Shown piece by piece: positions 15,185-49,095 of a DNA stretch of 64,000 nt. The DNA comes from Allobosea sp. LC85 (GTDB lineage: Bacteria; Pseudomonadota; Alphaproteobacteria; Rhizobiales; Beijerinckiaceae). The stretch is from the NCBI RefSeq assembly GCF_000735605.1, contig NZ_JPKG01000007.1, positions 62,001 to 126,000 on the forward strand, written 5' to 3'. Within the stretch, counting starts at the first letter, position 1. Each line of letters opens with the position of its first letter. The position numbers and the translations under genes were made by a program. A model generated the notes under the pieces. That model was given only the letters and a program-made list of their open reading frames with translations, made no database searches and was not told the origin of the DNA.

Positions 15185-15197
15185 AGTATATTGGGTG

Positions 15198-19025: not shown

Positions 19026-19338
19026 AGGGCGGGGTACCAGACTCCCAAATCGAAACGGCATTCCAGACGTCAGGGCGCGTGTCACGCACGCTCTTCTGCC
19101 GATTTCAGTCAGTATTCATGTCTGCAACAGCATGAAACGTGCCCGAAACAACAGTGGAGGGCAAGGGCGCCGACGTGGCGCGCGAGCGTCCCGTGATCCG
19201 GTCGTTTGGCTGCGTCCAGCAACCGTTCCGTGCACGAAGATGTGGTGACCGGCGGTGTTGAACCGGCGAAGAACGGTTTCAGGTCCAGGCGTTCGACGCG
19301 GACCCACACGCCCAGGGCCAGCGGACTGGACAGGGATG

Positions 19339-21540
19339 CTAGCCGCCTTCCAGGAGTTCCAGGAGGAAATAGGTTGTCGGCCCCGTCGGAAGGTCGTTCG
19401 AGAGGCGGAATGAAACCGGACCTGTGCCGCTGGTCATCGGCGGTCTCACCGTTCCATCGAGGGAGACAGGTGAGACCTGCCATCGCGGCGCTGTTCTGCT
19501 GATCCGCAGATCGACCTGCCCCTTGCGGATCAGGACCGGAAGCCGGCCGAAATCCTCGATCACCTTCTCCTGCCGGTCGCGGAACGTCATGCCGGTATTG
19601 CGGGCATCCGTGGCGAAGATCAGCAGGAAGCGGCTGCCCTTGGCGAGTGAGGCCGGCCTGTCGAGCGAGGCCAGGGCGACGAGGCCATCTCCCTCCGCAG
19701 CTTCGACGCTCATCGTCCCGAGCCTGGCCGGCAGGCTCTGTGAGGAGAAGGCGAGGGCTTCTGTCGCGGGGGTCGAAACGCGCAATTGCCGGTTCGGGCG
19801 GTTCAGGACGATCTCGCCCGTATCGCTCTGGTAGCGTCCCGCCGCAATGTCGGTGGTGTTTCCTTGTGGGAGTGCGCCGCTCTTCTTCAGCCTGTCGATG
19901 ATCGCGGCCGCACGATTGGCGTCGCGGGGCTGAACGACGGCGATCTGTTCGCCGATGCGGTCGGTAGCCTGCAATCCGATCCGCCCGATCAGGGCCAGGT
20001 CCGTCAGATTTTCAGGTTCCCGTGCCTGCATGTCCCGGCCCAGGTCCTCCTCGCCGCGAACCGCGAACGGGATCGTGATCTGGGAGGTGGAGACATCGCC
20101 GCGCCTGAACAGAAGTGCGGAAAGGGTCTCGCCCGCGCGGGCCACCGGATCGAGTGCGATCGCGTAGGGCAGCATGGCCCGCTTGTGCGGATAGGGCTCG
20201 CCATAGGCGAGGATGATCGGGCCGTGGGCGTGCCGGCAGAGCACGTCCCAGCCCTGCAGCGCGGCATAGGCCGGAAAGACCAGCCCGCCCTCGTAGCGAT
20301 AGCGGTTCCAGAACAGGTGATCGTATTCGCTGACGACGAAGGGCTTTCCGAGCCAGCGCGCCGCCGCGATCATGCGCATGGCATTGGCGCCGTCGGCGAC
20401 GGAACTCTGCTGGAGCAGCTTGCTGCCGGGCGCGTAGCCCCCGATCCAGTCGTGATAGGTGTTCATCGTCACGGCTTCGAGGCCGCGGCGGCTGAGGGCG
20501 GTCTGGATCGTCGGCCAGTTGTTGTAGGTGCTGATCAGGCCCCTGTAGCCAAGCGCGCGAAGCGCCTGGCTTATCTTTGCCGCGGATTCGGTCTCGACCT
20601 CAGTAAAGAAAGCCTGCAGGTCGCGCATGCGCGCGCTGTCGGCGTAACGGTCGCCGGGCAGTGCGATCGAGCCATTCTCCAGGCGCTCGGTCCAGCCGAG
20701 ACCGCCCCAGGCCTTTGAAAGAGCGGCCGTCGACACATAGCGCTTCGCCAGCCAACGATTGAAGGGGGCCGCGAGCATCGCGTCGTAGGGTGGTTTGCCG
20801 GGGCGATCGTGCACGACGCCGTCGAACTCTATGCCGTTCTCATTGGCCAGGATGACCAGCGCCAGCGCGTCATCGTCGATCGGGGCGACGCCGGTATGGG
20901 GATTGACGCGCGCGAGAAATTTCTCAGTGAAGGTCTTCCAATGGACGAAAGCGGCGTCATCGAGATGCAGCGCAAGCTTGAGGTTGCCGGCCGGGTCCCA
21001 GCGGTCGTCATAGCCGCCATAGGCGCCGCGCCACGAGGTCATCCCGTCAATGATCCAGTAGATGCCGTTCCGCTTCAGCGCGGCGAGCAGATAATGGACG
21101 CGGTCGAGCGTGTTGGGGTCGAAATCGAAATCCCTGCCGCGGCCGGACATCAGCGACGCATCAAGGAAGGTCAGCCGTGCGATGTTGTAGCCGTGGCGCG
21201 CGAGTTGCTGCGCGTAGCGGTCGGCTCCGGCGCGATCAGGGAAGCCGCCCGAGGCCGGGCTCCAGGCGAGCGAGGCGCAGAACAGGCGCGCCGGCTGCTC
21301 AGGCGCGTGGGCGAAGGCGAGACGGCCGTCTTGCCGCGCCACCACGCGTTGACCTGCGCCCATGGTGCTCCTCGGCCCGATGGCCCGGTTGGGCAGCAGC
21401 GCGGAGAAGTCGAGCGGGCTGCCGGGGCGGATCTCCAGCGACACCTCGCGAACCGGCAGCCATTGGTCAGAGGCGACGGCGCACGGCGCGGTGGCGCTCA
21501 GCGCCAGCAGCGTGGCCAGTGAGGAAAGCAGTCTTTTCAT
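19339..21540 (-). CDS. Secreted glycoside hydrolase (clan GH-A-like)
   Basis: A 733-residue protein with a signal peptide (KRLLSSLATLLALSATAPCA, residues 2-21). A TIM-barrel-like region covers about 75-450: YNIARLTFLDASL, GIYWIIDGMTSW, an acid/base candidate in ALVILANENGIEF (Asn-Glu) and a nucleophile candidate in KPFVVSEYDHLFWN. A C-terminal beta-rich region of about 250 residues follows. Sub-family (GH5-, GH39- or GH42-like) cannot be settled by eye. Export plus position at one end of the polysaccharide genes suggests trimming or degrading the polymer. The ATG at 21540 has AGGGGGG upstream. Confidence 0.85.
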   Translation of the reverse strand: MKRLLSSLATLLALSATAPCAVASDQWLPVREVSLEIRPGSPLDFSALLPNRAIGPRSTMGAGQRVVARQDGRLAFAHAPEQPARLFCASLAWSPASGGFPDRAGADRYAQQLARHGYNIARLTFLDASLMSGRGRDFDFDPNTLDRVHYLLAALKRNGIYWIIDGMTSWRGAYGGYDDRWDPAGNLKLALHLDDAAFVHWKTFTEKFLARVNPHTGVAPIDDDALALVILANENGIEFDGVVHDRPGKPPYDAMLAAPFNRWLAKRYVSTAALSKAWGGLGWTERLENGSIALPGDRYADSARMRDLQAFFTEVETESAAKISQALRALGYRGLISTYNNWPTIQTALSRRGLEAVTMNTYHDWIGGYAPGSKLLQQSSVADGANAMRMIAAARWLGKPFVVSEYDHLFWNRYRYEGGLVFPAYAALQGWDVLCRHAHGPIILAYGEPYPHKRAMLPYAIALDPVARAGETLSALLFRRGDVSTSQITIPFAVRGEEDLGRDMQAREPENLTDLALIGRIGLQATDRIGEQIAVVQPRDANRAAAIIDRLKKSGALPQGNTTDIAAGRYQSDTGEIVLNRPNRQLRVSTPATEALAFSSQSLPARLGTMSVEAAEGDGLVALASLDRPASLAKGSRFLLIFATDARNTGMTFRDRQEKVIEDFGRLPVLIRKGQVDLRISRTAPRWQVSPVSLDGTVRPPMTSGTGPVSFRLSNDLPTGPTTYFLLELLEGG

Positions 21541-21587
21541 TCCGGCGCGCCCCCCTTTTCGGCGATCGCTGGACGATTGTTGCGCAT

Positions 21588-22271
21588 TCAGGGCCGCGAC
21601 GGGCCGTGCAGGGTGTAGGATTTGGTGAGGCCGGCGATCTTCTCCCGAACCAGGTTCGCCTCGGGCGCATAGGAGCGGAATTCCTTCAGCGTCAGAATCT
21701 GAATCTCCTCGAAATACTCCCGGATGTGCTCCTCGGACGGCTTGGACAGGAAACGCCACGGCGACAGCCTGACGGCATGGCGGGCGAGCGAGCGCGGCAG
21801 CCAGTGGAGGGCAGGGCAGAAGAAGTGCGGCTCGATGGGGAATACGAAGGCCGGTGTCTGGATGAAGTAGTAGTTCGAGACGCGGTTGATCTCGCGCACG
21901 AGATTGGCTCGCTTGGCCGGCGGCACGTGTTCGATCACCGAGTTGCAGACCGCCACGTCGAACGACTTGTCCTCGAAGGGAAGGCGGTCGCCGTCATAGA
22001 CGATGACCTTGACGTCGCCGAACGTGCCGGTGAACGAGCGCGCCTGACCGTCGTCGCGAATGTTGACCAGCGTCAGGTCCTTGGGAACATCGACAGGGTC
22101 GAGCTTTTCCCAGAAATGCCGCGAGCCGCCGACGTCGCAGATCTTGAGCGAGGTGAATTCGGGGATGGTCTCGCGAAACAAGCCGCCGCGCTTCCTCCGG
22201 AAATATTCCGACGAGGAATGCACGATCCGGTCCCAGAGCGAAACGGTCTTCTCCGCAGTGTCGTCGGTCAT
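21588..22271 (-). CDS. SAM-dependent class I methyltransferase
   Basis: A 227-residue soluble protein. Motif I is LKICDVGGSRHFWEKL, the acidic motif is VKVIVYDGDRLPFEDKSFD, and motif IV is VAVCNSVIEHVPPAKR, as in Methyltransf_11. A CAGGAAAG sits upstream of the ATG at 22271. It lies between the glycoside hydrolase and a GT2 gene, so methylation of a sugar residue or of a lipid-linked intermediate is the likely role; the substrate is unknown. Confidence 0.88.
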   Translation of the reverse strand: MTDDTAEKTVSLWDRIVHSSSEYFRRKRGGLFRETIPEFTSLKICDVGGSRHFWEKLDPVDVPKDLTLVNIRDDGQARSFTGTFGDVKVIVYDGDRLPFEDKSFDVAVCNSVIEHVPPAKRANLVREINRVSNYYFIQTPAFVFPIEPHFFCPALHWLPRSLARHAVRLSPWRFLSKPSEEHIREYFEEIQILTLKEFRSYAPEANLVREKIAGLTKSYTLHGPSRP

Positions 22272-22313: not shown

Positions 22314-23324
22314 CTAGGCGGCCGTTCTCGCCGGTTCATGGATGATGCGGCTTTCGATGGGTGCGGCAGGTGGCTGCCGCCGCCGCAGGAAGCCCACAGG
22401 CAGCGCCGCGGCATGGAAGAACCAGGCGATGACGATATAGAGACCCATGCCCAGCCCGCCCTTGCGAAGGCTCATCAGCCCCACGATGCCGGCAAAGAGG
22501 GCGAGGACCAGCCCGAGAGCCAGCGCCTTGTCGGGAAGAAACAGCAGTATCGCGATGGAGAGCCCCCACCAGAGATAGACCGCGCTCCATAGCTTGAGCT
22601 CGGGGAGCTCGCGCAGGAGTTGGAAGAAATAGGGCTTGCCGAGCGATGCGCGCAGCAATTCGCCGACGCCGTGCAGATACTTGTTCTTCCAGCGCCTCGT
22701 CAGGAGCCGGTAGGAATTGAGCGTATGGCCGAAATGCTCGACGAAGCGCCGGTCGAGCCGATGCAGTTTCCATCCACCGCTCCTCAGGCGGATGCCGAGA
22801 TCGATCTCTTCATGGCCATGCAGATTGCGGTCCGAGAGATAGCCGGCCTGCTCGATCGCGCTGCGCCGGTAGAGCCCGCCACCATTCATCCGGTCGATCG
22901 GGCCGGTTCGGCTCTCGGGCCCATTGCGCTGTACCCGTCTGGCATATTCGAGATTGGAGACCTGCATTTCCTCGACATGTCCGGTGACGCCGGCCACGGC
23001 AGGGTTCTCGATGAGAAAATGGACGGCAGCATCGAGAAAGCCGGGGTCGACCAGCATGTCGCCGTCGATCAGGCAGATGTACTCGTGGCGGGAATGCTGG
23101 AAGCCGAGTTGCGGCCCGATCCCGCAACTCGGACGCGCCGGCGGAACGATCTGGGCAATCACCACCGGGTAGCCCGAAGCGATCTCGATGGTGCGGTCGG
23201 ACGAGCCGCTATCGGCGATGATCACCTCGCCCTGCAGGGCGGCAAGCGCCGCCAGGGCGCTCTCGATCGTCGCGGCGATGCGCTTCTCTTCGTTCAGGGT
23301 CTTGATGATGATGGAAACGGCCAA
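22314..23324 (-). CDS. Family 2 glycosyltransferase, membrane-anchored
   Basis: A 336-residue GT-A enzyme. AVSIIIKTLNEEKRI opens the domain; GEVIIADSGSSDRTIEI and YICLIDGDMLV (DxD-like) bind the nucleotide sugar; GHEEIDLGIRLRSGGW is the ED acceptor motif. Two or three hydrophobic segments lie at about 240-310. I chose the TTG at 23324 because GGAGG lies 5 nt upstream; the longer frame would run into the upstream gene. It probably adds one sugar to the lipid-linked repeat unit at the inner face of the inner membrane. Confidence 0.88.
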   Translation of the reverse strand: MAVSIIIKTLNEEKRIAATIESALAALAALQGEVIIADSGSSDRTIEIASGYPVVIAQIVPPARPSCGIGPQLGFQHSRHEYICLIDGDMLVDPGFLDAAVHFLIENPAVAGVTGHVEEMQVSNLEYARRVQRNGPESRTGPIDRMNGGGLYRRSAIEQAGYLSDRNLHGHEEIDLGIRLRSGGWKLHRLDRRFVEHFGHTLNSYRLLTRRWKNKYLHGVGELLRASLGKPYFFQLLRELPELKLWSAVYLWWGLSIAILLFLPDKALALGLVLALFAGIVGLMSLRKGGLGMGLYIVIAWFFHAAALPVGFLRRRQPPAAPIESRIIHEPARTAA

Positions 23325-23361
23325 TCGGGCCTCCAGTATCAGTATGGTCGGTGCCGCGACG

Positions 23362-24519
23362 TCAGAAATCCGTGAGCAGCCTGCTCCAGCTTTCCGATGC
23401 AAGCCCGCCGATATAGATCTCGTTGCGTAATGCGGCGTCCTTGATCTCGGCATGGCGTGTGACCATGCAGAAATAGCCGCGGTGCTTGAATGACAGCCAG
23501 CGCTGCCGCGATATCGCGTTCATCAGGAAAGGCTGCGCTATCCCGCTCGCCTGGGCATAACCCTCCCTGTCCAGGTGCGAGAACATCTGGCCTGTGACGT
23601 CAAACTCGTGGCCGGCGGCGCACAGGACGTTCAGAACAGTGGCTTCCCGGCCTTTCCTGCCAAAGAAGAGGAATGCCCCGATCACGCTGCCGTCCTCGGC
23701 GATCACCGTCCGGTATTGCAGGGAGCCGAGGCTCTGGTTCAGCGAGGCGACGCTGACGAGCCAGTCGAATTCGGGCTTTGACCAGGTCGGACGGATCGGA
23801 AAGCGTTCCATCATTGCGCCGGCGCAGCGGAAGAACTCCTCCGGGCTGGCCCTGTTCGTCCGGCACCCCGCTGCTGCGACCGGGACCAGCGATGGCCTTT
23901 GCCGGCGCAGCAGGCCATCGAACCAGCCGAGAAGGCCGAGGACGCCACGGGAGTGCGACAGCGGCAGGTAGCGGCCGCACGCGATGGCTCCGGCGGCGAG
24001 CGGCCGGAATGAACGCTGCCATTCGAGGCTCTGGATCGGCAGAACCGCACCGCCCCCCGCAACCCAGTGATCGGCGCTGACCGGGGAGGAGTTGTCGGAG
24101 AAGCACAGATCCTGCCGGGTCGCGCGCATCTGGCGGGCAAGACGCGCCGCTCCTGCCGCGCCGTCCTTCCCGTCCGCCATGAAGGCGCAGAGAAGCTTGG
24201 CGATGATCGGGCGGCCGTGGACGGTGAACTCCATGGGGACGGCGAGGATGGCGCTGGCAACGTCGCCTGAACCGCCCTCATAGACGATGCTGCCATGCTC
24301 CGGCCGGTAATGCGGGCTGCCGAAGAAGACCGTCTCGAGATAACCTTCCAGATCAGGCGCCACCTCGCCCTTTCGGTCACGGAAGGCTTTGCTGAACAGC
24401 CGCGCAACGGTGGGAATGTCGCGCTTCGTCATCGGACGCACGCCACAGGTGCGCGGAGGGCTCTCGGCGCCAATGGTCGCGGGGGACGGGCTCAGATCCC
24501 GTTGCAGGTCAGCGTCCAT
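23362..24519 (-). CDS. GNAT-like acyltransferase, paralog A
   Basis: A 385-residue protein. An N-terminal GNAT-like region (PMTKRDIPTVARLFSKAFRD, then GDVASAILAVPMEF) is followed by a second half that may be another GNAT fold (GSVIGAFLFFGRKGREATVL). It is clearly related to the gene at 26764: both open with DIPxVxxLFxxxFRDR and close with GGLASESWSRL / NGLAGEHWNRL. The start at 24519 overlaps the flippase stop by 11 bp, so it is in one operon with it. Acyl or aminoacyl transfer to a sugar is a reasonable guess; no substrate is shown. Confidence 0.75.
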   Translation of the reverse strand: MDADLQRDLSPSPATIGAESPPRTCGVRPMTKRDIPTVARLFSKAFRDRKGEVAPDLEGYLETVFFGSPHYRPEHGSIVYEGGSGDVASAILAVPMEFTVHGRPIIAKLLCAFMADGKDGAAGAARLARQMRATRQDLCFSDNSSPVSADHWVAGGGAVLPIQSLEWQRSFRPLAAGAIACGRYLPLSHSRGVLGLLGWFDGLLRRQRPSLVPVAAAGCRTNRASPEEFFRCAGAMMERFPIRPTWSKPEFDWLVSVASLNQSLGSLQYRTVIAEDGSVIGAFLFFGRKGREATVLNVLCAAGHEFDVTGQMFSHLDREGYAQASGIAQPFLMNAISRQRWLSFKHRGYFCMVTRHAEIKDAALRNEIYIGGLASESWSRLLTDF

Positions 24520-25831
24520 GCGCGATTCCCGCCGCGAGGCCTTGCTTGCGCGCCTCTTCCCTGTCCCTGTTCACGACATGCAGGAGCGCGCTCCAGGCCG
24601 CGGCCACCATGGCGACCTCGATGACATAGAAAGAAACGAAGGTGCCGGTTGGTGGCGCATACCAGGTCGCACAGGCGGCAACCGCGGCGCCGATGATGCT
24701 GCCAAGCCCCATGACGGCGGCGCGGATCGGCTGATGGCCCGATGCTCCGAGCGCTTCCACCGCCACGGACCACATCGCCAGCGGAATCACCACCCAGCAC
24801 AGAATCCTGATGAACGAGACGAGCGACACGTAATCCCTTCCGAACAGATAGGGCAGGACCGGCGCCAGAATGAAGACGGCGACCGCGGCTGCGATGCTGA
24901 TCGCGGTGGCTGCAACGAGAACCTTCCTGACGCGGGGCAGGGCATGCTGCAGGCCGGCGGCCGTCGCCTTGGCCGAGCCGGGGTAGACCAGGCGATTGAG
25001 CGCCTCGACCGAGAGATAGCTGCTCTCCAGCATCCGTCGTGCGACGCTGTAGCTCGCGACGATTTCGGCTGTCGCGACAAGGCTGAGCACGAGCAGATCG
25101 GCATTCTGCCGGACCGCCCGCAGGATGAAGGGAATGCTGAAATAGAGCCCGAGCGGTAATTCTTCCCGCACGATCCGGTATTTTGGCTGGCCCAGCCCCC
25201 GGATGGCGTGCCGGCATGCCAGTGCAACGAGCACATGGCAGGCGAACTGCCACAGCGCCCAGGTCGCGACCGTGGAAACACCGAAGACGATGCAGGCAAG
25301 GCAGGCAGCGATCGTCCGTGCCATGGCAAAGCCGACCACGACGGTGTTGGCCGAGCCGAAATCGGAATGGGCGATGAAGATCTGCTCGGCCAGCACGATG
25401 ATACGAACCAGCATGATGTTCGTGACGAGCATCAGGGTGATCACCGCGACATTCGTCGCCGGATCGCTGGAGAGCGTGAAGAAGAAGGGCAGAACCACTG
25501 CGCCCAGGAGAACCAGAAGGATACCGCTGGCAGCTGTCAGGATGATGTTGTGCCCGAGCATGTCCGGATAGAGCGCCCGGTCACGCGCCACGCGGCGAAC
25601 CAGGCACTCCATGGCGCCGAGCCCGCACATATGGACCGCGATATTCGAGATCGCGGTGATGGCGACGAAAAGGCTGAACTCATGGACGCCGAGCCAGCGG
25701 GCCAGGATGGCGAAGGTCAGAAGTTGTGCGGCGGAGCTGATGACGAGGCTGCCGCCGGACGCGGCATAGGACATGAGCATAGGCAGAAATGCTCTGCGGC
25801 TGCTCGATCCTTTCGCGTTATCCGAAGCCAT
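24509..25831 (-). CDS. Polysaccharide flippase (Wzx/MurJ-type, MOP superfamily)
   Basis: A 440-residue integral membrane protein with about twelve hydrophobic segments, beginning SYAASGGSLVISSAAQLLTF and including GLGAMECLVRRVARDR, typical of polysaccharide_synt exporters. It would move lipid-linked repeat units across the inner membrane for Wzy polymerisation. The ATG at 25831 (MASDNAKGSSSRRAFLPML) is preferred; the frame is open 25 codons further. The C-terminal end overlaps the next gene by 11 bp. Confidence 0.88.
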   Translation of the reverse strand: MASDNAKGSSSRRAFLPMLMSYAASGGSLVISSAAQLLTFAILARWLGVHEFSLFVAITAISNIAVHMCGLGAMECLVRRVARDRALYPDMLGHNIILTAASGILLVLLGAVVLPFFFTLSSDPATNVAVITLMLVTNIMLVRIIVLAEQIFIAHSDFGSANTVVVGFAMARTIAACLACIVFGVSTVATWALWQFACHVLVALACRHAIRGLGQPKYRIVREELPLGLYFSIPFILRAVRQNADLLVLSLVATAEIVASYSVARRMLESSYLSVEALNRLVYPGSAKATAAGLQHALPRVRKVLVAATAISIAAAVAVFILAPVLPYLFGRDYVSLVSFIRILCWVVIPLAMWSVAVEALGASGHQPIRAAVMGLGSIIGAAVAACATWYAPPTGTFVSFYVIEVAMVAAAWSALLHVVNRDREEARKQGLAAGIAHGR

Positions 25832-26020
25832 CCGGTCCTGCCTTTGACAACAACCGAGATAGCGGCACTCGGTGGCGTCCACCATCGACAATACGGCCAG
25901 TAACACGCAGAAATGATTGTGCGGTTAACACCGCCTGATCGCTGCATTTCAGCGTCCGTTTACCTGAAGGCCATAGTTTTGCGCGGATGAACAAGGCGCT
26001 CAGCAAGGGAAGGGGCGTTC

Positions 26021-26767
26021 ATGCCGCACACAGCGTTGGATCTCGACGGCAAGCCTCGGCCCGGCCTGCATCGCTTCATGGGCGTGAGCCTGGAGCTGGC
26101 GCCCGATGTTCTCGTGCCGCGCCAGGAAACGGAGCTCCTCGGCCAGAGTGCAGCCGCGATCCTGCGTGATCGCCAGTCCGAGATTGCCGGTGTCGCGGGC
26201 CCGGTGGTGATCGACATGTGCTGCGGCTCCGGCAATCTCGGACTGGCGATCGCAGCCGAAATTCCGTCGGCGCGGGTCTGGGCTGCCGATCTGACCGACA
26301 GCACCGTCGCGCTCGCACGTCGAAATGCGGAGCGCCTGGCTCTTCAGCATCGCGTCACGATCCGGCAGGGGGACCTGTTCGCTGCGTTCGCGGAAGACGG
26401 GTTGGAGGGGGGCGTCGACCTGATCGTCTGCAATCCGCCCTATATCTCCACCTCGCGCCTCGAAGGGGAAAGCGCCCATTTGCTCGCGGCCGAACCGCGC
26501 GAAGCCTTTGACGGCGGACCCTATGGCATCTCGATCCACCAGCGGGTGATCCGGGACACCGTAGCCTTTCTCAAGCCGGGCGGCTGGCTGCTGTTCGAGT
26601 TCGGCGAGGGCCAGGATCGGCAAGCGGCTGCGCTCATCGCTCGGACCAAAGCTTATGAACCCGTGACCTTCGCCTCGAATGAGGCCGGTACACCGCGGGT
26701 CGCCCTTGTTCGCAAGCTCCCGGAGTTCGGACAGGCATCGACCGAAGCGACAGGTCGCCCGGCATGA
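26021..26767 (+). CDS. PrmC/HemK-like methyltransferase
   Basis: A 248-residue protein. VLVPRQETELLGQ and the substrate-binding motif VCNPPYIS are those of N5-glutamine methyltransferases, and VVIDMCCGSGNLGLAIA is the SAM-binding loop. It lacks the N-terminal helical domain of true PrmC, so release factors are unlikely substrates. It overlaps the downstream GNAT-like gene by 4 bp (ATGA). The pair runs against both neighbouring groups, inside the polysaccharide locus, so methylation of a polymer decoration or of its carrier is a possible role. Confidence 0.85.
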   Translation: MPHTALDLDGKPRPGLHRFMGVSLELAPDVLVPRQETELLGQSAAAILRDRQSEIAGVAGPVVIDMCCGSGNLGLAIAAEIPSARVWAADLTDSTVALARRNAERLALQHRVTIRQGDLFAAFAEDGLEGGVDLIVCNPPYISTSRLEGESAHLLAAEPREAFDGGPYGISIHQRVIRDTVAFLKPGGWLLFEFGEGQDRQAAALIARTKAYEPVTFASNEAGTPRVALVRKLPEFGQASTEATGRPA

Positions 26768-27879
26768 GCGAGATCCGCCCGCTGGGCGCCGCCGATATCC
26801 CGGCGGTTACGGGGCTCTTTCAAAGGATATTCCGGGATCGCGGCGTGCCTCCTCCGCCCGCGCTCGCCACATATCTGCGCCGACACTATCTCGAAGCTCC
26901 GGGTTGCGATCCGGAGATCGCCCCCCTGGTCCATGTTTCGGGTGAGGGCGACATTTCGGGCTTTGTCGGCGTCAACGTGCTGCCGATGAGCCATGGCGGG
27001 CGCAAGCTGCGCGCGGCAATCTGCGGTTCGCTGATGGTCGAGAGGCGGGCGAGCGACCCGATGGCAGGTGCGCGGCTGCTCAAGACCTTTCTCGCCGGGC
27101 CGCAGGATCTCTCCTTCAGCGAAACCGCCAGCGAGGTCTCCGCGCAGATGTGGACGAGACTGCGCGGGATCGCCCTGCCGCAGTACAGCCTGGACTGGGT
27201 CCGTATCATCCGGCCATCGGCTTTCATGCTCGATCTGGCTGCGAGCCGAAGCGGCGCGGTGCGGTTGCTGAGCTCGCTCTCCAACGGATTGGATCGTTAT
27301 TGGCGCGGCCGGATGCAGGATAACGATCTGCGCTGGTCGGGCGTGCCGGCGAACTGGAGTGTCAAGGGCGGCCTCAAGGTTGCCGAGATCGATCAGTCCG
27401 GCTTTGCAGCCCTCGTTGCTCCACTGACAGAACAGTTCGCGCTGCGTCCGGATTGGTCAGGCCAGCAACTCGCCCACATCATCGCCGAGGCGTCCGAGAA
27501 GCCGGAATATGGCGAGGCCGTGTATGCGTCGGTCACCTCGGCCGGCGGGGCGCCGATCGGCGCCTTTCTGTATCACGCCCAACCGGGACGGATCGCGCGC
27601 GTCCTCCAGATCCTTGCCAGGCCCGGGCAGGCAGGTCCGGTCATCGATTGCCTGATTGGTCACGCGGCCGCGCGCGGCGCTGCGGGACTGCGCGGCCGCA
27701 TTCAGCCTGCCCTGCTGGAAGCCATGCTGGGTCGACGCATCGCCTTTAGCCACATCGCATCGACAGTCGTGCATTCCCCCGATGAGGCGCTCATCCAGGC
27801 CTTCCGCAACGGGCAAGGTTTCCTGAACGGACTGGCGGGCGAGCACTGGAACCGCCTGAACGGCGGCAGCTTCGATTAG
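26764..27879 (+). CDS. GNAT-like acyltransferase, paralog B
   Basis: A 371-residue paralog of the gene at 23362. The N-terminal domain (IRPLGAADIPAVTGLFQRIF, then GDISGFVGVNVLPM) and the second half (GGAPIGAFLYHAQPGRIARV) suggest a tandem GNAT arrangement. It is coupled to the PrmC-like methyltransferase by a 4-bp overlap. The stop TAG (27877-27879) directly abuts repeat copy 2 and may be part of it. No substrate is evident. Confidence 0.75.
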   Translation: MSEIRPLGAADIPAVTGLFQRIFRDRGVPPPPALATYLRRHYLEAPGCDPEIAPLVHVSGEGDISGFVGVNVLPMSHGGRKLRAAICGSLMVERRASDPMAGARLLKTFLAGPQDLSFSETASEVSAQMWTRLRGIALPQYSLDWVRIIRPSAFMLDLAASRSGAVRLLSSLSNGLDRYWRGRMQDNDLRWSGVPANWSVKGGLKVAEIDQSGFAALVAPLTEQFALRPDWSGQQLAHIIAEASEKPEYGEAVYASVTSAGGAPIGAFLYHAQPGRIARVLQILARPGQAGPVIDCLIGHAAARGAAGLRGRIQPALLEAMLGRRIAFSHIASTVVHSPDEALIQAFRNGQGFLNGLAGEHWNRLNGGSFD

Positions 27880-27880
27880 A

Positions 27881-27978
27881 GCATCGGCCCGAAAGGTGGA
27901 TTGCGGTTTTCGGAAAAGCCGATGCAAACACAGAAGGTTAGATCATCTGACCGGGTACGCTATCCGGTCCGATGATTT
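27881..27978 (+). repeat. Two-hairpin dispersed repeat, copy 2
   Basis: Same structure as copy 1: GCATCGGC...GCCGATGC, a GGTTAGATCATC spacer, then a palindrome ending CCGGTCCGATGATTT. It starts 2 bp after the stop of GNAT paralog B and fills most of the space before the converging NadE-like gene, where it may also act as a transcript end. Confidence 0.9.
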
Positions 27979-28025
27979 AACTTTCGCGCATCGGAGACGG
28001 GCAGGCCATCGCCGATGCGCTGGCC

Positions 28026-29033
28026 TCACCGCGCGATTTCGCCCACCGGGCAGACGAGCTGGGGGCCCAGATGCAGGTAACGGGTCGCCTTGCGCTTGGC
28101 TGCTATATCGGCCCAGACCCGCTCGACCTCGACAGCCGTCAGTTGCGTCGCCATGCCGACCTGTTCGGCTGTAAGGCCATGATTGAGCCCGTAGAGGCAC
28201 AGGTCCATGCGGTCATAGGGCAGCGAGAAGTAGAACTCCTCCTGCGTTTGCTCGAGGGTGTAGGTGTCGGTCGTCGGCGGTCGCCTGCGGATCTCCTCGG
28301 GAATGCCGAGATGAGCTGCCAGTGCATAAACCTGGCTCTTGTAGAGATGGGCGATCGGCTTCACGTCGGCGGCTCCGTCGCCGTTCTTCACGAAGAAGCC
28401 CTGGTCGTATTCGAGCCGGTTTGGCGTGCCGAGCACGGCAAAATTTAGTCGATCGGCGTGATAATATTCGATCTGCTTGCGCGTGCGCTGCTTCATGTTG
28501 GTGGCGGCGACGATGCCGAGATAGACGGTGGGCGGCATGCGCAGCTTCGTCTGCCGGCCTTCGGGGTCCTGAACGACCAGATACGAGATGTTGTAGCCAT
28601 CGCCCGAGAGCGAGTTGGCGATGACGATCTTGGAAGCCCAGCCCGGCCCATACTCGGGTACGAGTTCGCGGATGAAGCCGTCGCGTCGTTCATAGCAACC
28701 CATGGCCTGCAGCGTCGGGCCGATATCCTCGACCGCGGCCTCGATCCCGAAGGTCTCGGCGACCAGCCGGCCGAGCCGGAGGCTCTCAGGATCGGAATCG
28801 TTCTCCGGCATGAACAGGCAGAAGACGTTCTTCGCGCCGACGGCGCGAACCGCCAGCGCGACAGACACGCTGGAATCGATGCCGCCGGAGAGGCCGAGCA
28901 CGAGCCCGCGCTTGCGCATGCCGCGCAATTGCCCCCGCAGTTCGGCGACGATCCGGTCCGTCTCCACGGCATTGTCGATCTTCAGCGTCTCTGCGGAGAA
29001 GGCGAGCGTGCTCGGGGAAGGGGCGATGTTCAT
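28026..29033 (-). CDS. NAD synthase-like PP-loop amide ligase
   Basis: A 335-residue protein with the ATP-pyrophosphatase loop LVLGLSGGIDSSVSVALA (SGGIDSS at 49-55) and the NadE-type GDGAADVKPIAHLYKSQVYA. It has no nitrilase (glutaminase) domain. Several NadE positions differ: the QTDExELG region reads EQTQEEFYFSL, and the usual Thr-Ser-Asn-Lys-x-Glu is GTPNRLEY. NadE would amidate deamido-NAD with ammonia; here the enzyme is translationally coupled (4-bp overlap) to an acyl-AMP ligase and sits with an ACP and an AsnB, so amidation of another adenylated acid is at least as likely. It could still be the cell's NadE; other genome regions would have to be checked. Confidence 0.85.
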   Translation of the reverse strand: MNIAPSPSTLAFSAETLKIDNAVETDRIVAELRGQLRGMRKRGLVLGLSGGIDSSVSVALAVRAVGAKNVFCLFMPENDSDPESLRLGRLVAETFGIEAAVEDIGPTLQAMGCYERRDGFIRELVPEYGPGWASKIVIANSLSGDGYNISYLVVQDPEGRQTKLRMPPTVYLGIVAATNMKQRTRKQIEYYHADRLNFAVLGTPNRLEYDQGFFVKNGDGAADVKPIAHLYKSQVYALAAHLGIPEEIRRRPPTTDTYTLEQTQEEFYFSLPYDRMDLCLYGLNHGLTAEQVGMATQLTAVEVERVWADIAAKRKATRYLHLGPQLVCPVGEIAR

Positions 29034-30577
29034 TCCGCTGCTCCCAGCGTTTCGGCTGCCAGCCTGCGGCTGACCTTGCCGGTATCCGTCTTCGGCAGTT
29101 CGGTGCGGAACTCGATGATCCTCGGCACCATGAAGTCCTCGAGATGGGCGGCGCAGTGGCGAATGATGTCCCGCACGCTCAGGCTCTCGTCCGACAGGAC
29201 GACGAGGGCGGCAATGGCCTGGCCGAGCACCGGGTCAGGCACACCTATCACCACCGCTTCCGCAATGCCGGGATGGCCGTGCAACACCGTTTCGACCTCC
29301 TTCGGGGCGACTTTCTCGCCGCGCGTCTTGATGATGTCGTCCTTGCGGCCGACGAAATAGAGGAAGCCCTCCTCGTCCGTCTGGAAGAGGTCGCCGGTAT
29401 GAAGCCGCTTTTCCCAAGGATTCGGGCCGGGGCGCAGCATCTGCGCCGTCGCCGCCTCATTGCGCCAATAACCCTGCATCACATGCGGACCGCGGATCAC
29501 CAGCTCGCCCGGCACTCCCGAAGGCACACGGTTGCCCTCATCGTCGACAACCAGGGCCTCGGTGTTTGGAATGGCGATCCCGACCGAACCCGGCCGACGG
29601 TCGAGCTCTTCCGGCGGCAGATAGGTGCAGCGCTTGCACTCCGTCAGGCCATACATCGAATAGAGCCGCACGCCGGGGAACAGTTCACGCAGGCGGGCGA
29701 TATGGGCGGGCGGCAGGGCCGCGGCCGTGTTCGAGAGGTAGCGCAGGCTCGGCAGGAAGCCCGGCTCCAGATCGCGCATCTGCAGGATCATCGCGGCCAT
29801 CGTCGGCACGAGCGGGAAACCGGTGACATTCTCAGTGCGAATGCGCTCGAAGACCGCTTGCGGGAAGGCGAAGGATTTCTCCAGGACGAGCGTCGCCCCG
29901 AGCTTCATCGCCATGAGGAACTGGTAGAGACCGTAGTCGAAGGCCAGCGGCAAGACGTTGAGGATGATGTCGTCGGGCGTATTGCGCAGATAGGTCGTGA
30001 TCGAGCCGGCTGCCGCGTCGATATTGCGATGCGTCATCATCACGCCCTTGGGCCGTCCGGTGGAGCCCGAGGTGTAGATCAGCATGGCAAGATCGATATC
30101 GATGCCGCCGTGGCCGACAGGATCGGGCGGCCCCTCCAGGCAATCCTCGAAGGACACAGCGCCTTCGAGCGGCCGGCCGTCCGGTGGCTGCGTCGAGGCG
30201 ACGAAGACCGTCCGCCCGGGCAGCAGCGCCCGCGCCTGTGTCACGACCGGCAGCAGCTTCGCCTGGGTCAGGACCGCGGCGGCCTCGCAATCCCCGATGA
30301 CATAGGCGAGCTTGTCGGCCTTGGTCGACGCGTTGATCGGGCTGAAGGTCGCCCCGGCCTTGAGGACCGCGAAGATCGAGACGGCGGCTTCCCAGCAATT
30401 ATCCATGAAGACGAGGACGCGGTCGCCCCGCTTCACGCCGTTTGCGGCGAGCGCGGCGGCGAGCCGGCTGGAAAGGTCATCCAGCTCGTCATAGCGCAGC
30501 CGCTTCTGGTCGGTGACCAGAGCCGTCTTCGCAGCCTGTGCAGCGGCGTTCGTGACGAGGAATTGCTCGATCCGCAT
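29030..30577 (-). CDS. Acyl-AMP ligase (ANL superfamily)
   Basis: A 515-residue adenylating enzyme. Core motifs are MLIYTSGSTGRPKGVMMTH (P-loop, about 165-183), LYSMYGLTECKRCTYLPPE (A5), LHTGDLFQTDEEGFLYFVGR (A7/A8) and PKTDTGKVSRRLAAE (A10 with the catalytic Lys). It activates a carboxylic acid as acyl-AMP and loads it on CoA or, as the adjacent acyl carrier protein suggests, on the ACP. Similar ligases are known from exosortase-associated polysaccharide clusters, but no exosortase is in this window. The cognate acid is unknown. Confidence 0.92.
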   Translation of the reverse strand: MRIEQFLVTNAAAQAAKTALVTDQKRLRYDELDDLSSRLAAALAANGVKRGDRVLVFMDNCWEAAVSIFAVLKAGATFSPINASTKADKLAYVIGDCEAAAVLTQAKLLPVVTQARALLPGRTVFVASTQPPDGRPLEGAVSFEDCLEGPPDPVGHGGIDIDLAMLIYTSGSTGRPKGVMMTHRNIDAAAGSITTYLRNTPDDIILNVLPLAFDYGLYQFLMAMKLGATLVLEKSFAFPQAVFERIRTENVTGFPLVPTMAAMILQMRDLEPGFLPSLRYLSNTAAALPPAHIARLRELFPGVRLYSMYGLTECKRCTYLPPEELDRRPGSVGIAIPNTEALVVDDEGNRVPSGVPGELVIRGPHVMQGYWRNEAATAQMLRPGPNPWEKRLHTGDLFQTDEEGFLYFVGRKDDIIKTRGEKVAPKEVETVLHGHPGIAEAVVIGVPDPVLGQAIAALVVLSDESLSVRDIIRHCAAHLEDFMVPRIIEFRTELPKTDTGKVSRRLAAETLGAAE

Positions 30578-30602
30578 GAGCCTGTTGCTCCACCCCTAAC
30601 CG

Positions 30603-30869
30603 TTACGCCGTGACCGGCGCGGCTACTTTGGACGCGATGAAGGCCGAGATGCGATCAAGCGAATCCAGGTTCGCGGGCACGATATCGGCATCGGCCACGG
30701 TAATCCCATAGCGATCCTCGATGAAGGCCACGAGTTCCAGAACCCCGGTCGAATCGATGACCCCGTTCTCGATCAGCGAGTCCGTGCCCACGAGCACATG
30801 GCTGGTATCGCCGAACAGGAAGTTCTCGACGACGAATGCCTTCACGCTGTCCCTGATTGTTTCGCTCAT
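30603..30869 (-). CDS. Acyl carrier protein
   Basis: An 88-residue acidic protein from the ATG at 30869. IENGVIDSTGVLELVAFIED contains the phosphopantetheine Ser (about 40) in DST instead of the common DSL, with the four-helix ACP pattern around it. It lies 25 bp from the acyl-AMP ligase and 23 bp from asnB on the same strand. It should carry the acid activated by the ligase to an amidotransferase or acyltransferase of the locus. Confidence 0.9.
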   Translation of the reverse strand: MSETIRDSVKAFVVENFLFGDTSHVLVGTDSLIENGVIDSTGVLELVAFIEDRYGITVADADIVPANLDSLDRISAFIASKVAAPVTA

Positions 30870-30892
30870 GTCTTTCCCTTTCCTGGCCGGTT

Positions 30893-32830
30893 TCAGGCGG
30901 CCTCTGATCTGCTGCTGCGCGCGCCGGTGAATGTCTGCAGCCAGAGCTGCGTCGAGAGGATGCCGACGAAGGCCGCGTTGTCGCGAAAGCCGGAGGCCGG
31001 GCGGGCGCTGCATTTCTCGTGCAGCTTTGCCACGGCCTTGGGATTGAACAGACCACCGGCCGCGACCTGCGCTTCACCCATGGCGGACTGGACATAATCG
31101 GCTGCGCCCGCCCCGACAAAGGAGTGACTGTCCGGCGCTCGATAGGGCTGCTTGCTCCGCCGGCTGATCGAGGGCGGCAGCAGGTCCTTGGTTGCCTCCC
31201 GCAGGATGTGCTTCTCGACGAGCCCCTTCAGCTTCATCTCGGGGGGGAGTCCGGCGGCGAACTCGACCAGTCGATGGTCGAGGAAGGGAAAGCGCCCCTC
31301 GATGCCATGGGCCATCGCCATGCGGTCGCCCTGGCTGGACAGGATATAGCCGGGGAGCAGGAAGCGGGCTTCCAGATACTGCGCCTGATGCAAGGGGTGC
31401 CACCGGGCGAAGGCCTCAGGCAGGCGCGAAGCGAGTTCCTCGGCCGCGTCGTATCCCGATAGCGTGGCGCGCAGGTCGCCCGAGAAGAACAGCTTCGTCG
31501 CCGCCGTGCCGTCGAGCCGCGGCCGATGGGAGAATAGCGGATCGTCGAGTGCCCCGCTGCCGGCCCCGAAAAAGGATGCGAGATATTCTGCGGATTGCTG
31601 CCTCAGGCCCGGCAGATAGGGGTAGAGCTTGCGGAACAGATGCGGCCTGATCCGGGAGTTGGGCTGCCTGCCGCAGAAGCGGCGAACCCGCGCCTCCTTG
31701 AAGATGTCGTAGCCGGCAAAGACCTCGTCCGCGCCTTCGCCCGTCAGCACCACTTTCAGCCCGGCCTCGCGCACAAGGCCTGACAGTTTGAAGAGCGGAG
31801 CAGGCGCGGTTCTGAGGATAGGCCGCTCGGTGAAACGGATGACCTCGGGAAAGACCGCGGCGATATCACCCTCGCCGCAGGCGACGGAACTGTGCTGCGT
31901 CCCGAGCGCCCGGGCCATTTCCAACTGGAAGACGCTCTCGTCATGCTCGGCGCTGTCGAAGGTGACGGAAAAGGTCCTGAGACCGCCGGGCGCCATGCCG
32001 GCAGCAAGCGCCGACGTGATCGAGGAATCGAGCCCGCCGGAGAGATAGGCGCCAACCGGGACATCGGCCCGCATGCGAATGCGGGTCGCCTCGGTCAGCA
32101 GGGCGCGCAGTTCCTCGGCCACAGCGCGCTCGTCGTTGTGCCGCGACGGCTCATCCCGATCGGGATAGTCCAGGCTCCAATAGGGCCGCGTCGAGACGCT
32201 GCCCTCCTCGACGATCATGAGATGCGCTGGTTCCAGTTCGAAGATGTCGCGGAAGGCCGTGCGCGGCGCGATCGGCGCCCATAACGTGAAGATCTGGTCG
32301 AGGGCGAGCGGATCGATCTCTGCGCTGACGCCGGGGACCCGGAGAAGCGCCTTGACCTCCGAGCCGAAATAGAACCGGTCCCCCTGCCTCGTATAGAACA
32401 GCGGCCGGACGCCCATGCGGTCGCGAGCCAGAACCATGCGGCGACGCCGACCATCCCAGAGCGCGAAGGCGAAATCGCCATTGAGGACGGACAGGCAGTC
32501 CTCTCCCATCTCGTCATAGAGATGCAGGATCACCTCGGTGTCGCTCGATGTCCTGAAGCGGTGGCCCTTTGCGCGCAGTTGCTCGCGCAATTCGACATAG
32601 TTGAAGATCTCGCCGTTGAAGGCGATCGTCAGTTCACCCGTCGCATCGGACATGGGTTGCTGGCCATCCCCCAGGCCGACGATGGACAGTCGGGCATGAC
32701 CGAGGCCTGCGTCTTGTGCGGTGAAGAGCCCTTGCTCGTCGGGTCCGCGATGCGCGATCGCAGCCGTCATCCGTTCAAGGAGCGCCCTCCCATCCCGGAC
32801 TGCGCCGAAATAGCCCCCAAATCCGCACAT
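30893..32830 (-). CDS. asnB: Asparagine synthase-type amidotransferase
   Basis: A 645-residue protein starting MCGFGGYFGAV, with Cys2 as the glutaminase nucleophile. The class II glutaminase domain spans about 2-210 (AIAHRGPDEQG, FNGEIFNYVELREQLRAKGH, SSDTEVILHLYDEMGED). The synthase domain has the PP-loop VGAYLSGGLDSSITSALA (264-270) and TGEGADEVFAGYDI. Exopolysaccharide-linked AsnB paralogs amidate sugar-acid or other carboxyl groups rather than making asparagine. Its position beside the ACP and ligase supports such a role. The upstream-extended frame (to 32890) would put residues before Cys2 and is rejected. Confidence 0.92.
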   Translation of the reverse strand: MCGFGGYFGAVRDGRALLERMTAAIAHRGPDEQGLFTAQDAGLGHARLSIVGLGDGQQPMSDATGELTIAFNGEIFNYVELREQLRAKGHRFRTSSDTEVILHLYDEMGEDCLSVLNGDFAFALWDGRRRRMVLARDRMGVRPLFYTRQGDRFYFGSEVKALLRVPGVSAEIDPLALDQIFTLWAPIAPRTAFRDIFELEPAHLMIVEEGSVSTRPYWSLDYPDRDEPSRHNDERAVAEELRALLTEATRIRMRADVPVGAYLSGGLDSSITSALAAGMAPGGLRTFSVTFDSAEHDESVFQLEMARALGTQHSSVACGEGDIAAVFPEVIRFTERPILRTAPAPLFKLSGLVREAGLKVVLTGEGADEVFAGYDIFKEARVRRFCGRQPNSRIRPHLFRKLYPYLPGLRQQSAEYLASFFGAGSGALDDPLFSHRPRLDGTAATKLFFSGDLRATLSGYDAAEELASRLPEAFARWHPLHQAQYLEARFLLPGYILSSQGDRMAMAHGIEGRFPFLDHRLVEFAAGLPPEMKLKGLVEKHILREATKDLLPPSISRRSKQPYRAPDSHSFVGAGAADYVQSAMGEAQVAAGGLFNPKAVAKLHEKCSARPASGFRDNAAFVGILSTQLWLQTFTGARSSRSEAA

Positions 32831-36065: not shown

Positions 36066-36819
36066 CCTATCCGAACGCCTTGGGGCGAAGGTCGACAGGT
36101 TGAGCAACCGGCTGATCTGGGGGCTCGCAGGGTCCAGGCGTCGCCTGGAGACGGACACCCCGCTGGTCTCGTTCACCTTCGATGATGTTCCAGATTCTGC
36201 CCGCAGCGAGGGAGCATCGATCCTCGAGAAATATGGCGTGCGCGGCACGTTCTACATCGCTGGAGGGCTCGCGGCGCAGGTTGAGCCAGGCCGGGTGCTG
36301 ATCGCGCCTGAAGGATGCCGGGATCTGGCCGAACGCGGTCACGAGATCGGTTGTCACACCTTCTCGCATCGCAGAATCCGCGACATCCCCGGCGCCGAGT
36401 TGTCGCGCGATCTGGACCGCAATGCCGACTATCTCGCGGGGGCCGGAATTTCGCCGCCGCCGACTAATTTCGCCTTTCCATACAATGCGGCATGGCCCCT
36501 GGCGCGCCCCGAATTCCGCCGGCGCTTCCGCACATGCCGCGGGGCCGGCGAGGCGATCAATCGCGGAACGGTCGATCCCCTCATGCTCAAGGCCGTCGAG
36601 ATTCGCCAGCCCGACCTGGAGGCGCGCGTCCTGACGCGCTGGATCGACGAAGTCGTCGACATGCCCGGCTGGCTCGTCTTCTTCACGCATGACATCGCGC
36701 CCAACCCGACACCCTATGGCTGTACGCCGAGCACGTTCGAGCACCTGGTGCGCCACGCGGTCGAGCGCGGATGCGCGGTCCTGCCTGTCGACCGAATGCT
36801 GGATCGGATCGGCTGGTGA
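36058..36819 (+). CDS. Polysaccharide deacetylase (NodB/CE4 family)
   Basis: A 253-residue protein. The NodB motifs are SFTFDDVPDSARSEGA (motif 1, with Val where Gly is common), GHEIGCHTFSHRRI (zinc-binding His-x3-His) and a late VFFTHDI. There is no signal peptide, so it may act on cytoplasmic, lipid-linked sugars, or be exported in an unusual way. The ATG at 36058 overlaps the Wzy-like gene by 8 bp, which shows an operon. It would remove N- or O-acetyl groups from a sugar residue. Confidence 0.88.
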   Translation: MPSLSERLGAKVDRLSNRLIWGLAGSRRRLETDTPLVSFTFDDVPDSARSEGASILEKYGVRGTFYIAGGLAAQVEPGRVLIAPEGCRDLAERGHEIGCHTFSHRRIRDIPGAELSRDLDRNADYLAGAGISPPPTNFAFPYNAAWPLARPEFRRRFRTCRGAGEAINRGTVDPLMLKAVEIRQPDLEARVLTRWIDEVVDMPGWLVFFTHDIAPNPTPYGCTPSTFEHLVRHAVERGCAVLPVDRMLDRIGW

Positions 36820-36830
36820 GGAGCAGCGAC

Positions 36831-38075
36831 GTGGCAAGACCACAACCTGCCGGCAAGCGCCTGCTGGCGATCAATAACTATTTCTACCGCCGCGGAGGGG
36901 CGGAGGCGGTCTTCTTCGACCAGATGACCATGTTCGGCAGGATCGGCTGGGATGTCGTCCCCTTTGCCATGCAGCACGAGAGCAATGAGCCATCGCCATG
37001 GTCAGGCTATTTCGTGTCGGAGATCGAATATGGTCGCAGGACGAGCCCGTTGCGAAAGGTCGTCCAGGCGGCAAGCATCATCTATTCGCTCGAGGCCCAG
37101 CGAAATATCGCGCGACTGATCGAGCAGGCGCGCCCCTCGGTCGCCCACGCCCATAACGTCTACCACCACCTCTCCCCGGCGATCTTCTCCACCTTGAAGT
37201 CGGCTGGCATTCCGGTGGTGATGACGGCGCATGACCTGAAGCTCGCCTGCCCGTCCTACAAGATGCTGCGCGACGGAAAAGTCTGCGAGGATTGCCGCGG
37301 CGGGCACATCTACAATGTCCTGCGCCATCGCTGCATCAAGGAATCCGTGCCGCTCAGCGCCGTGGTCCTGGCGGAAACGATGGTGCATCGCTCGCTTGGC
37401 CTGTACCGGGAGAAACTCGACCGCATCGTCGTTCCCAGTCGCTTCTATCTGGAGAAACTGGTCGAATGGGGCTGGCCCCGCGAGCAACTGGAATACATAC
37501 CGAATTTCGTCGATGTCGAGCGTTACCGCAGCGACTGGGAGGAGGGCGATTATTTCGTCTTTGCCGGCCGCCTTGCGCCCGAGAAGGGGCTGGCGACATT
37601 GATCAGGGCCGTCGCTCTCTCCAAGCAGCGGCTTGTCGTGGCCGGCACGGGGCCGGATGAGGCGGTCCTTCGTCAATTCGCCAGCGAAACCGGCGCGGAT
37701 GTGCGTTTCGTGGGGCATCTGTCGGGGCAGGACCTGCACCGCCTGATCGGGCAATCCCAGGCCCTGGTGCTGCCCTCCGAATGGTATGAGAACGCGCCGA
37801 TCAGCATCCTGGAAGCCTATGCACTGGGACGTCCCGTGGTGGGCGCCGCCATCGGCGGCATACCGGAGATGATCCGGGAGAGAGAAACCGGAATGCTGGT
37901 GATCTCAGGGGACGCGCATGATCTCGCGCAGAAGCTGGCGGAGCTCGCTGCGCTTCCTGCTGCCGAGCGAGCCAGGATGGGAGCGGCGGGGCGGCAATGG
38001 ATCGCCGCGGGCTTCTCCGCCACCGCCTTTCGCGACCGGACGTTGAGCCTCTATGCCGCGCTTGGAGCGGCCTGA
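36831..38075 (+). CDS. Family 4 glycosyltransferase
   Basis: A 414-residue GT-B enzyme. The N-terminal half has NNYFYRRGGAEAVFFDQM and VAHAHNVYHHLSP; the donor-binding half has FAGRLAPEKGLATLIRA and the GT4 E-x7-E motif LPSEWYENAPISILEAYA. An inserted VCEDCRGGHIYNVLRHRC has three closely spaced cysteines and could bind a metal. I use the GTG at 36831, 7 nt after GAGGAG; another GTG is at 36816. It starts 11 bp after the deacetylase stop. Confidence 0.9.
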   Translation: MARPQPAGKRLLAINNYFYRRGGAEAVFFDQMTMFGRIGWDVVPFAMQHESNEPSPWSGYFVSEIEYGRRTSPLRKVVQAASIIYSLEAQRNIARLIEQARPSVAHAHNVYHHLSPAIFSTLKSAGIPVVMTAHDLKLACPSYKMLRDGKVCEDCRGGHIYNVLRHRCIKESVPLSAVVLAETMVHRSLGLYREKLDRIVVPSRFYLEKLVEWGWPREQLEYIPNFVDVERYRSDWEEGDYFVFAGRLAPEKGLATLIRAVALSKQRLVVAGTGPDEAVLRQFASETGADVRFVGHLSGQDLHRLIGQSQALVLPSEWYENAPISILEAYALGRPVVGAAIGGIPEMIRERETGMLVISGDAHDLAQKLAELAALPAAERARMGAAGRQWIAAGFSATAFRDRTLSLYAALGAA

Positions 38076-49089: not shown

Positions 49090-49095
49090 CCATAT

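Follow-up and report, generated by a model that had tools for sequence, protein, structure and literature searches.

The gene set described here resembles parts of several characterized systems. In Dlt D-alanylation, the ligase DltA loads the carrier protein DltC for transfer to a cell-surface polymer. Exopolysaccharide (EPS) clusters of the XrtA/exosortase type contain an acyl-AMP ligase (TIGR03098) and an AsnB-type amidotransferase (TIGR03108). Another AsnB-type enzyme, WbpS, forms uronamides in the O antigen of P. aeruginosa; in EmbRS-null Rubrivivax, aggregation and colony form change when a WbpS-like gene is disrupted (PMC3684757). We analyzed a 64,000-nucleotide stretch of Allobosea sp. 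LC85 (assembly GCF_000735605.1, contig NZ_JPKG01000007.1, positions 62,001 to 126,000; hereafter the window) and found a four-gene cassette, asnB-ACP-acyl-AMP ligase-NadE-like (ACP, acyl carrier protein), on the minus strand at 28026-32830. Around the cassette extends a polysaccharide island of Wzx/Wzy type, ~20 kb long (19339-39954), which also encloses the stretch covered by the original prediction, a model's reading of the sequence alone. That prediction had proposed a polysaccharide-tailoring module. Open reading frame (ORF), Pfam and NCBIfam scans found every gene it had named, each in its place, and confirm that the gene set is real. The cassette and its closest companions are as follows:

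23362..24519, minus strand: GNa, GNAT-family paralogue, 385 aa; adjoins the flippase; 28% identity to GNb
26021..26767, plus strand: PrmC-like methyltransferase, 248 aa; TIGR03534 below cut-off; NPPY motif
26764..27879, plus strand: GNb, tandem-GNAT protein, 371 aa, as predicted by an AlphaFold2 (AF2) model and fold comparison
28026..29033, minus strand: NadE-like PP-loop amide ligase, 335 aa; NF002048, 525 bits
29030..30577, minus strand: acyl-AMP ligase, 515 aa; PF00501 (AMP-binding) and PF13193 (AMP-binding_C)
30603..30869, minus strand: acyl carrier protein, 88 aa, DST motif; start corrected from homologues
30893..32830, minus strand: AsnB-type glutamine amidotransferase, 645 aa; TIGR01536 over cut-off; Cys-2

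How does this locus compare with the known systems? Like Dlt, it has a carrier that would be loaded by a ligase for a surface polymer, but it adds two amide-forming enzymes and has a GNAT-fold protein as the likely transferase; no MBOAT family member was found among the island proteins scanned. The window AsnB is proposed to serve a surface glycan as WbpS does, but it goes together with an ACP, a ligase and a NadE-like enzyme, and no uronic-acid-forming enzyme was recognized among the island proteins scanned. The likeness to XrtA/exosortase clusters lies in the AsnB-type amidotransferase and the acyl-AMP ligase. Both score well against the exosortase-associated families, yet both fall below the cut-offs (TIGR03098, 461.5 bits against 592.35 for the ligase; TIGR03108, 436.3 bits against 816.9 for AsnB), and the NadE-like enzyme and tandem GNAT are tied to the present set. 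The absence of an exosortase was confirmed: none of the 20 cassette genomes has a TIGR02602 match over cut-off, G090 has one weak match below it, and this genome has no match. An exosortase link was rejected on this ground. One cassette locus, L044, carries a PqqD-like protein (weak match; 15048-16436), a TPR protein (16720-18525) and an NTP_transf_5 protein (18600-19748), a combination known from exosortase-linked EPS clusters; its genome has no exosortase match. We found no description of the cassette combination among the open-licence PubMed Central papers searched.

The conservation of these genes, which recur together in many soil and root-nodule bacteria, indicates that they form a unit. 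Using only the NadE-like alignment (E ≤ 1e-3), we scanned a collection with a single genome per species (84,980 species), found at least 575 NadE-like relatives and kept the best 80 loci (the 80 named loci), which are the nearest relatives and include many close kin. All four core genes were matched in 79 of the 80, a few of the 79 being cut by contig ends; in the remaining locus, L113, the contig ends just before the ligase. We also examined an order sample of 297 genomes and a phylum sample of 398. The NadE-like family model NF002048 matches 293 of the 297 order genomes at E ≤ 0.001 and is over its cut-off in 20, this genome included, and in 15 of the 398 phylum-sample genomes. In all 19 other order genomes over the cut-off, the NadE-like gene, the ligase and the ACP are adjacent, and AsnB stands alongside them in 18 of the 19; given these counts, the adjacency is not due to chance. 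The exception is G295 (locus L050), whose AsnB (73% identical to the window's) lies on another contig (L202), in the run AsnB-flippase-GNa-Wzz-Wzy-GT4-GT4-GT2 (GT, glycosyltransferase). Outside the order, all four core genes were found in 4 of 4 loci, with AsnB ~2.4 kb off in L145.

The order of the core genes varies while membership stays constant: GNb-asnB-ACP-ligase-nadE or nadE-asnB-ligase-ACP in loci of the order, and ACP-ligase-asnB-nadE-GNAT in Azospirillum. Across the order loci, all four core genes show correlated pairwise distances (r 0.78-0.91); shared descent alone could account for part of this. A cluster census of 108 loci, in which genes came from a codon-usage script that undercounts short genes (the ACP, for example, was found in 56 of 108 loci) and clusters without a window member were named by eye, returned as clusters in at least 18 loci only the core, the GN (GNa/GNb) and PrmC-like families, Wzz, GT4, Wzy, flippase and one cluster without a match to the window whose start resembles a polysaccharide deacetylase. 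An ABC-ATPase-like cluster came next (14 of 108 loci), and a transporter may thus be a further companion of the cassette. Together with the co-occurrence of the GNAT-like family described below, the match of the core in 79 of 80 loci strongly supports the idea that the genes form a module.

Some records in these searches deserve comment in their own right. The locus in a record named Bacillus subtilis SK6B4 (L114) resembles the one in Pseudochrobactrum (L118), and a record named Roseateles (L230; UNVERIFIED_ORG) carries the Shinella arrangement; both names appear doubtful. Two plasmids, of S. meliloti and S. medicae (H83 and H84), give NadE-like matches that are shortened (81% and 79% covered) and may come from copies broken in single strains. 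A second ligase-like match, with 28-31% identity to the ligase of the window, lies near the cassette at L043:15357-16625, L045:7444-8664, L049:3769-5208, L050:4184-5716, L051:6990-8381 and L147:2569-3972.

The NadE-like protein is far over the cut-off of NF002048/PRK00876 (525 bits against 313), a model that also matches 20 of 20 members of its alignment, A1. The predicted 4-bp coupling to the ligase is present: the ligase ends at 29030, and the NadE-like ATG at 29033 overlaps its stop. The AF2 model of the NadE-like protein (predicted local distance difference test, pLDDT, 85.1) has as best solved matches the NH3-dependent NMN/NAD synthetases 3fiu, 1xng and 2e18 (Z ~28), with which it shares the fold and the PP-loop motif. 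Unlike these enzymes, it is tied to the cassette and has ~50 extra residues within positions 113-180 relative to 2e18, the best-scoring solved NadE in the hidden Markov model alignment. The NadE-conserved halves are separated by ~68 residues, against ~15 in this P. horikoshii NadE, and the extra region holds the invariant positions P126, W132, K135 and R165. A Pfam scan found no glutaminase domain in the protein. The original prediction would have failed had the window gene been the sole, essential nadE of the genome and had the families not co-occurred elsewhere. A canonical NAD synthase, encoded by a 582-aa frame, lies on another contig (G000:C59; 196.2 bits, cut-off 63.65), so the window copy is not the sole nadE and need not serve NAD synthesis. 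The NadE-like enzyme has likely changed its substrate. The subfamily is not confined to bacteria; the methanogenic archaeon Methanosarcina acetivorans, a control genome, exceeds the NF002048 cut-off, so the subfamily extends to archaea.

For the ligase, the best solved matches are adenylation domains of nonribosomal peptide synthetases (NRPS), which score above solved fatty acyl ligases. The ACP start that fits the homologues gives 30603-30869; a longer ORF, extending to 31013 and into asnB, is a mechanical call. All 19 homologues have the motif serine; the residue before it is D in 18 of them and N in one (L037), and PF00550 matches the window ORF weakly (E 0.018). Among NCBIfam models, the ornithine-lipid ACP NF052616 scores best (54.6 bits, cut-off 130), with NF058660 also below its cut-off. 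AsnB is well over the cut-off of TIGR01536 (510 bits against 267.1). Its start lies at 32830, and the protein begins MCG, which supplies the glutaminase Cys-2; Cys occupies position 2 in 18 of the 18 homologues listed (starts chosen by script).

The two GNAT-like proteins are paralogous, as the original prediction had it: GNa and GNb form a single sequence cluster. Neither matches a Pfam or NCBIfam family at E ≤ 0.001, and at E ≤ 10 Pfam gives only Acetyltransf_9 for GNa (E 0.0039, 17.6 bits, cut-off 25). The AF2 model of GNb (pLDDT 92.8) was compared with solved structures by two methods. Foldseek places N-myristoyltransferases at the top (TM score ~0.48), while a second structural aligner scores N-myristoyltransferases and Eis-type acetyltransferases alike (Z 18.7-19.7), with 285-306 residues aligned, a root-mean-square deviation of 3.5-5.8 and ~10% identity among the 50 matches listed. 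On this model, GNb is a predicted tandem GNAT, with two GNAT domains over its whole length, as in N-myristoyltransferase and Eis. In contrast to those proteins, to which it is only ~10% identical, it matches no Pfam or NCBIfam family at E ≤ 0.001, is bacterial and is encoded beside an ACP. The GN family (E ≤ 1e-10) occurs in 27 of the 297 order genomes: 14 of the 20 with a cassette and 13 of the 277 without one (Fisher p = 1.7e-12, which ignores relatedness), and GNb accompanies the cassette in 65 of the 80 named loci. GNa adjoins the flippase in the window, L191, L202 and S. meliloti L134; the L191 genome, in which GNa stands beside a flippase homologue, is not among the 20 cassette genomes. 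GN members also occur in other genomes without the NadE-like cassette (L184-L188, L190 and L193-L196); those of L184-L188 are alike, 44-45% identical to GNa.

The methyltransferase coupled to GNb was also correctly described as truncated: it overlaps GNb by 4 bp and matches PrmC from profile position 53 of 253 on. The front of PrmC is missing, and the score against TIGR03534 (172.8-173.8 bits) is below the cut-off of 199.1. PrmC proper is encoded elsewhere in the genome (247.7 bits, over cut-off), so that the window PrmC-like copy, like the NadE-like one, is extra. The NPPY motif is kept in the window protein and in 7 of 7 homologues. PrmC-type enzymes with NPPY methylate planar nitrogens such as glutamine amides. 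Amide-N methylation by the PrmC-like protein would fit the cassette, since two amide-forming enzymes are present. The PrmC-like gene occurs in 37 of the 80 named loci, 34 of which also have GNb; in the 19 order loci, PrmC-like is present in 7 and GNb in 11, never together.

We hold, with only about even confidence, that this is a portable cassette whose enzymes build an acyl, or possibly aminoacyl, group bearing an amide and link it to a surface glycan; here, that glycan would be the product of the Wzx/Wzy island. Which genes belong to the set, how they are conserved and co-occur, and what folds and catalytic motifs they have come from the analysis; which acid is used, in what order the steps run and what accepts the group are inferred, and the steps are drawn from general family chemistry. 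The ligase would adenylate a small carboxylic acid and load it onto the phosphopantetheine of the ACP. AsnB would form a carboxamide using glutamine nitrogen, and the NadE-like enzyme would adenylate another carboxylate and join it to ammonia or another amine. Where present, the PrmC-like enzyme would methylate a planar amide nitrogen, and GNb would transfer the acyl group from the ACP to an amine on a sugar precursor ahead of export. A more specific version is possible but, in our view, doubtful: a NadE-fold enzyme that has departed from NAD synthesis and AsnB might act as successive amide ligases on an ACP-bound acid, a PrmC derivative no longer devoted to release factors might N-methylate the product, and a bacterial tandem GNAT of N-myristoyltransferase type might transfer the group to an amino sugar, together forming a new route to amide-bearing glycans. 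The parts come from known families; their combination would be a form of carrier-based decoration of a surface polymer.

What ties the cassette to polysaccharide? Nearly the entire island is also found on S. meliloti pSymB. S. meliloti 1021 (L134) has the core, GNb, PrmC-like, flippase, GNa, Wzz and the part of Wzy that lies in the stretch, and S. meliloti ml46 has homologues of the deacetylase, the GT4s, VanZ, the GT2 and the glycoside hydrolase. In S. meliloti, the cassette core lies ~10 kb away from the other island genes, with minCDE in between, and a search of the stretch did not find the methyltransferase at 21588. In Azospirillum thermophilum, a sugar transferase, an O-antigen ligase, three glycosyltransferases and a deacetylase are followed on one strand by ACP-ligase-AsnB-NadE-GNAT; a 'lipopolysaccharide biosynthesis protein' lies on the opposite strand, and this cassette's GNAT is only 22% identical to GNb. 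In Shinella and the plasmid labelled Roseateles, a flippase and three glycosyltransferases adjoin the cassette. A sugar transferase and a Wza-type protein lie near it in L043, and a Wzy in L044. The window-type Wzy occurs in 8 of 20 cassette genomes and 25 of 277 others (p = 4.9e-4). Finally, at least one window-type polysaccharide gene is found in 37 of the 80 named loci (some matches weak) and at least three in 28.

Several observations weigh against our favored reading. In 43 of the 80 named loci, no window-type polysaccharide gene lies within up to 10 kb on each side (less at contig ends). Among these 43 genomes, 20 have no window-type Wzy at E ≤ 1e-40 and 23 have one, 14 of the 23 at only 29-33% identity. 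The window flippase occurs in 6 of the 297 order genomes, 2 of the 20 with a cassette and 4 of the 277 others (p = 0.055). Neighbor tallies at 15 of the 19 order loci, compared by their 25 commonest families with 15 control stretches on the same contigs, point the same way. The near set comprised 153 predicted neighbors, of which 148 were of at least 120 aa and 146 were scanned (two long ones dropped); it excludes ORFs overlapping core, GN or PrmC-like matches of >60 bits, which also removes further ligase-like ORFs. The control set comprised 237 predicted proteins, 225 of at least 120 aa, of which 138 were drawn at random and 136 scanned (two longest dropped). Glycosyltransferase families are absent from the 25 commonest of the 146 neighbors at these distant loci, and likewise from the 25 commonest of the 136 control proteins; rarer glycosyltransferase matches may be present. 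The sugar-nucleotide-type Epimerase family (PF01370) occurs in 5 of the 146 neighbors and is not among the control's 25 commonest. A polysaccharide link as a general rule is therefore not supported by these tallies. For the aminoacyl part, the position aligned with the Asp (D235) by which NRPS adenylation domains bind the substrate alpha-amino group is D in 16 of 20 aligned ligases and G or S in the other 4, so the acid may or may not be an amino acid. To our knowledge, there is no substrate, product or mutant for the cassette.

The interpretation in the original prediction therefore stands in part. The module, the absence of an exosortase and the extra nadE are borne out, while placement on a sugar of an exported polymer is supported in this window, S. 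meliloti, Azospirillum and the split arrangement of G295 (L202), and not in the 43 loci without a polysaccharide gene or by the neighbor families. On this mixed evidence, we take the cassette to be portable, with a range of glycans as its targets or, in some hosts, a role of another kind.

What else might it serve? The same 43 loci and the lack of a glycosyltransferase among the commonest neighbors would be expected if the cassette made a diffusible small molecule on the ACP, such as a signal or another amide natural product, in which case mobile genes would have brought it into the island by chance. Immediately before nadE, a thioesterase-domain protein (PF00975) is encoded in two loci of order nadE-asnB-ligase-ACP (L038:8465-9604 and L044:8483-9529), and the family occurs in 4 of the 146 neighbors and is not among the 25 commonest of the 136 control proteins; the extra ligase-like matches near the cassette (27-31% identical; for example, in L045, L049, L050, L051 and L147) fit this idea as well. 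No PF00975 gene was seen in the window's cassette. Nevertheless, beyond the core, GN and PrmC-like families, the clusters recurring in at least 18 of the 108 census loci are of polysaccharide types, the AsnB of G295 stands apart inside a polysaccharide cluster, and in Azospirillum the entire set lies within an EPS-type run. We consider a small-molecule product unlikely, though it is the alternative that we take most seriously.

Modification of a membrane lipid or lipid A, with the tandem GNAT as an N-acyltransferase, would agree with the ornithine-lipid ACP as best NCBIfam match and with the N-myristoyltransferase fold of GNb. However, that ACP match is below cut-off, no lipid-modifying partner was recognized among the clusters in at least 18 of the 108 loci, and the ligase scores NRPS adenylation domains above solved fatty acyl ligases; we regard this explanation as quite improbable. 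It is hardly credible that the genes are spare housekeeping copies (a second NAD synthase, asparagine synthase and PrmC) gathered by chance. The records do annotate the NadE-like protein and AsnB as NAD(+) synthase and asparagine synthase, and the PP-loop motif is retained, but this idea is already contradicted by the conservation of four genes together in 79 of 80 loci, by constant membership under shifting gene order, by the added stretch of ~50 residues, some of them invariant, that the NadE-like protein carries and by the missing front part of the PrmC-like one.

The remaining genes of the island are as follows:

19339..21759, minus strand: probable glycoside hydrolase; 68% to the S. meliloti ml46 island homologue annotated thus; no Pfam match; start uncertain
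21588..22271, minus strand: S-adenosylmethionine (SAM) methyltransferase (Methyltransf_11, Pfam); 92% to Bosea sp. WAO L054
22314..23453, minus strand: glycosyltransferase family 2; PF00535; 76% to the S. meliloti ml46 island
24509..25906, minus strand: Wzx-type flippase; PF01943
33156..34724, plus strand: Wzz/GumC-type co-polymerase; PF02706, PF13807
34734..36065, plus strand: Wzy/O-antigen-ligase-type protein; PF04932
35917..36819, plus strand: polysaccharide deacetylase; PF01522; 66% to S. meliloti ml46; start uncertain, overlaps the preceding ORF
36771..38075, plus strand: glycosyltransferase family 4; PF00534, PF13439
38328..39500, plus strand: glycosyltransferase family 4; PF00534, PF13439
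39577..39954, plus strand: VanZ-like small protein; 49% over 123 aa to a VanZ family protein of the S. meliloti ml46 island

Two gene pairs elsewhere in the window are of separate interest. At 2412-5948, an aspartate 4-decarboxylase adjoins an aspartate-alanine antiporter; together, these form a proton-motive pair. At 47899-51014, the minus strand encodes a ROK-family protein and the plus strand a deacetylase resembling NagA (TIGR00221, 195 bits against a cut-off of 225.65); the two possibly serve amino-sugar catabolism.

Why would the cassette matter? If our reading is correct, the public names of these proteins, 'NAD(+) synthase', 'asparagine synthase', 'class I adenylate-forming enzyme' and 'hypothetical protein', are misleading, and the set would define a decoration pathway in rhizobia, the laboratory strain S. 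meliloti 1021 among them. A surface glycan bearing an amide or methylamide could affect attachment and how plants recognize these bacteria.

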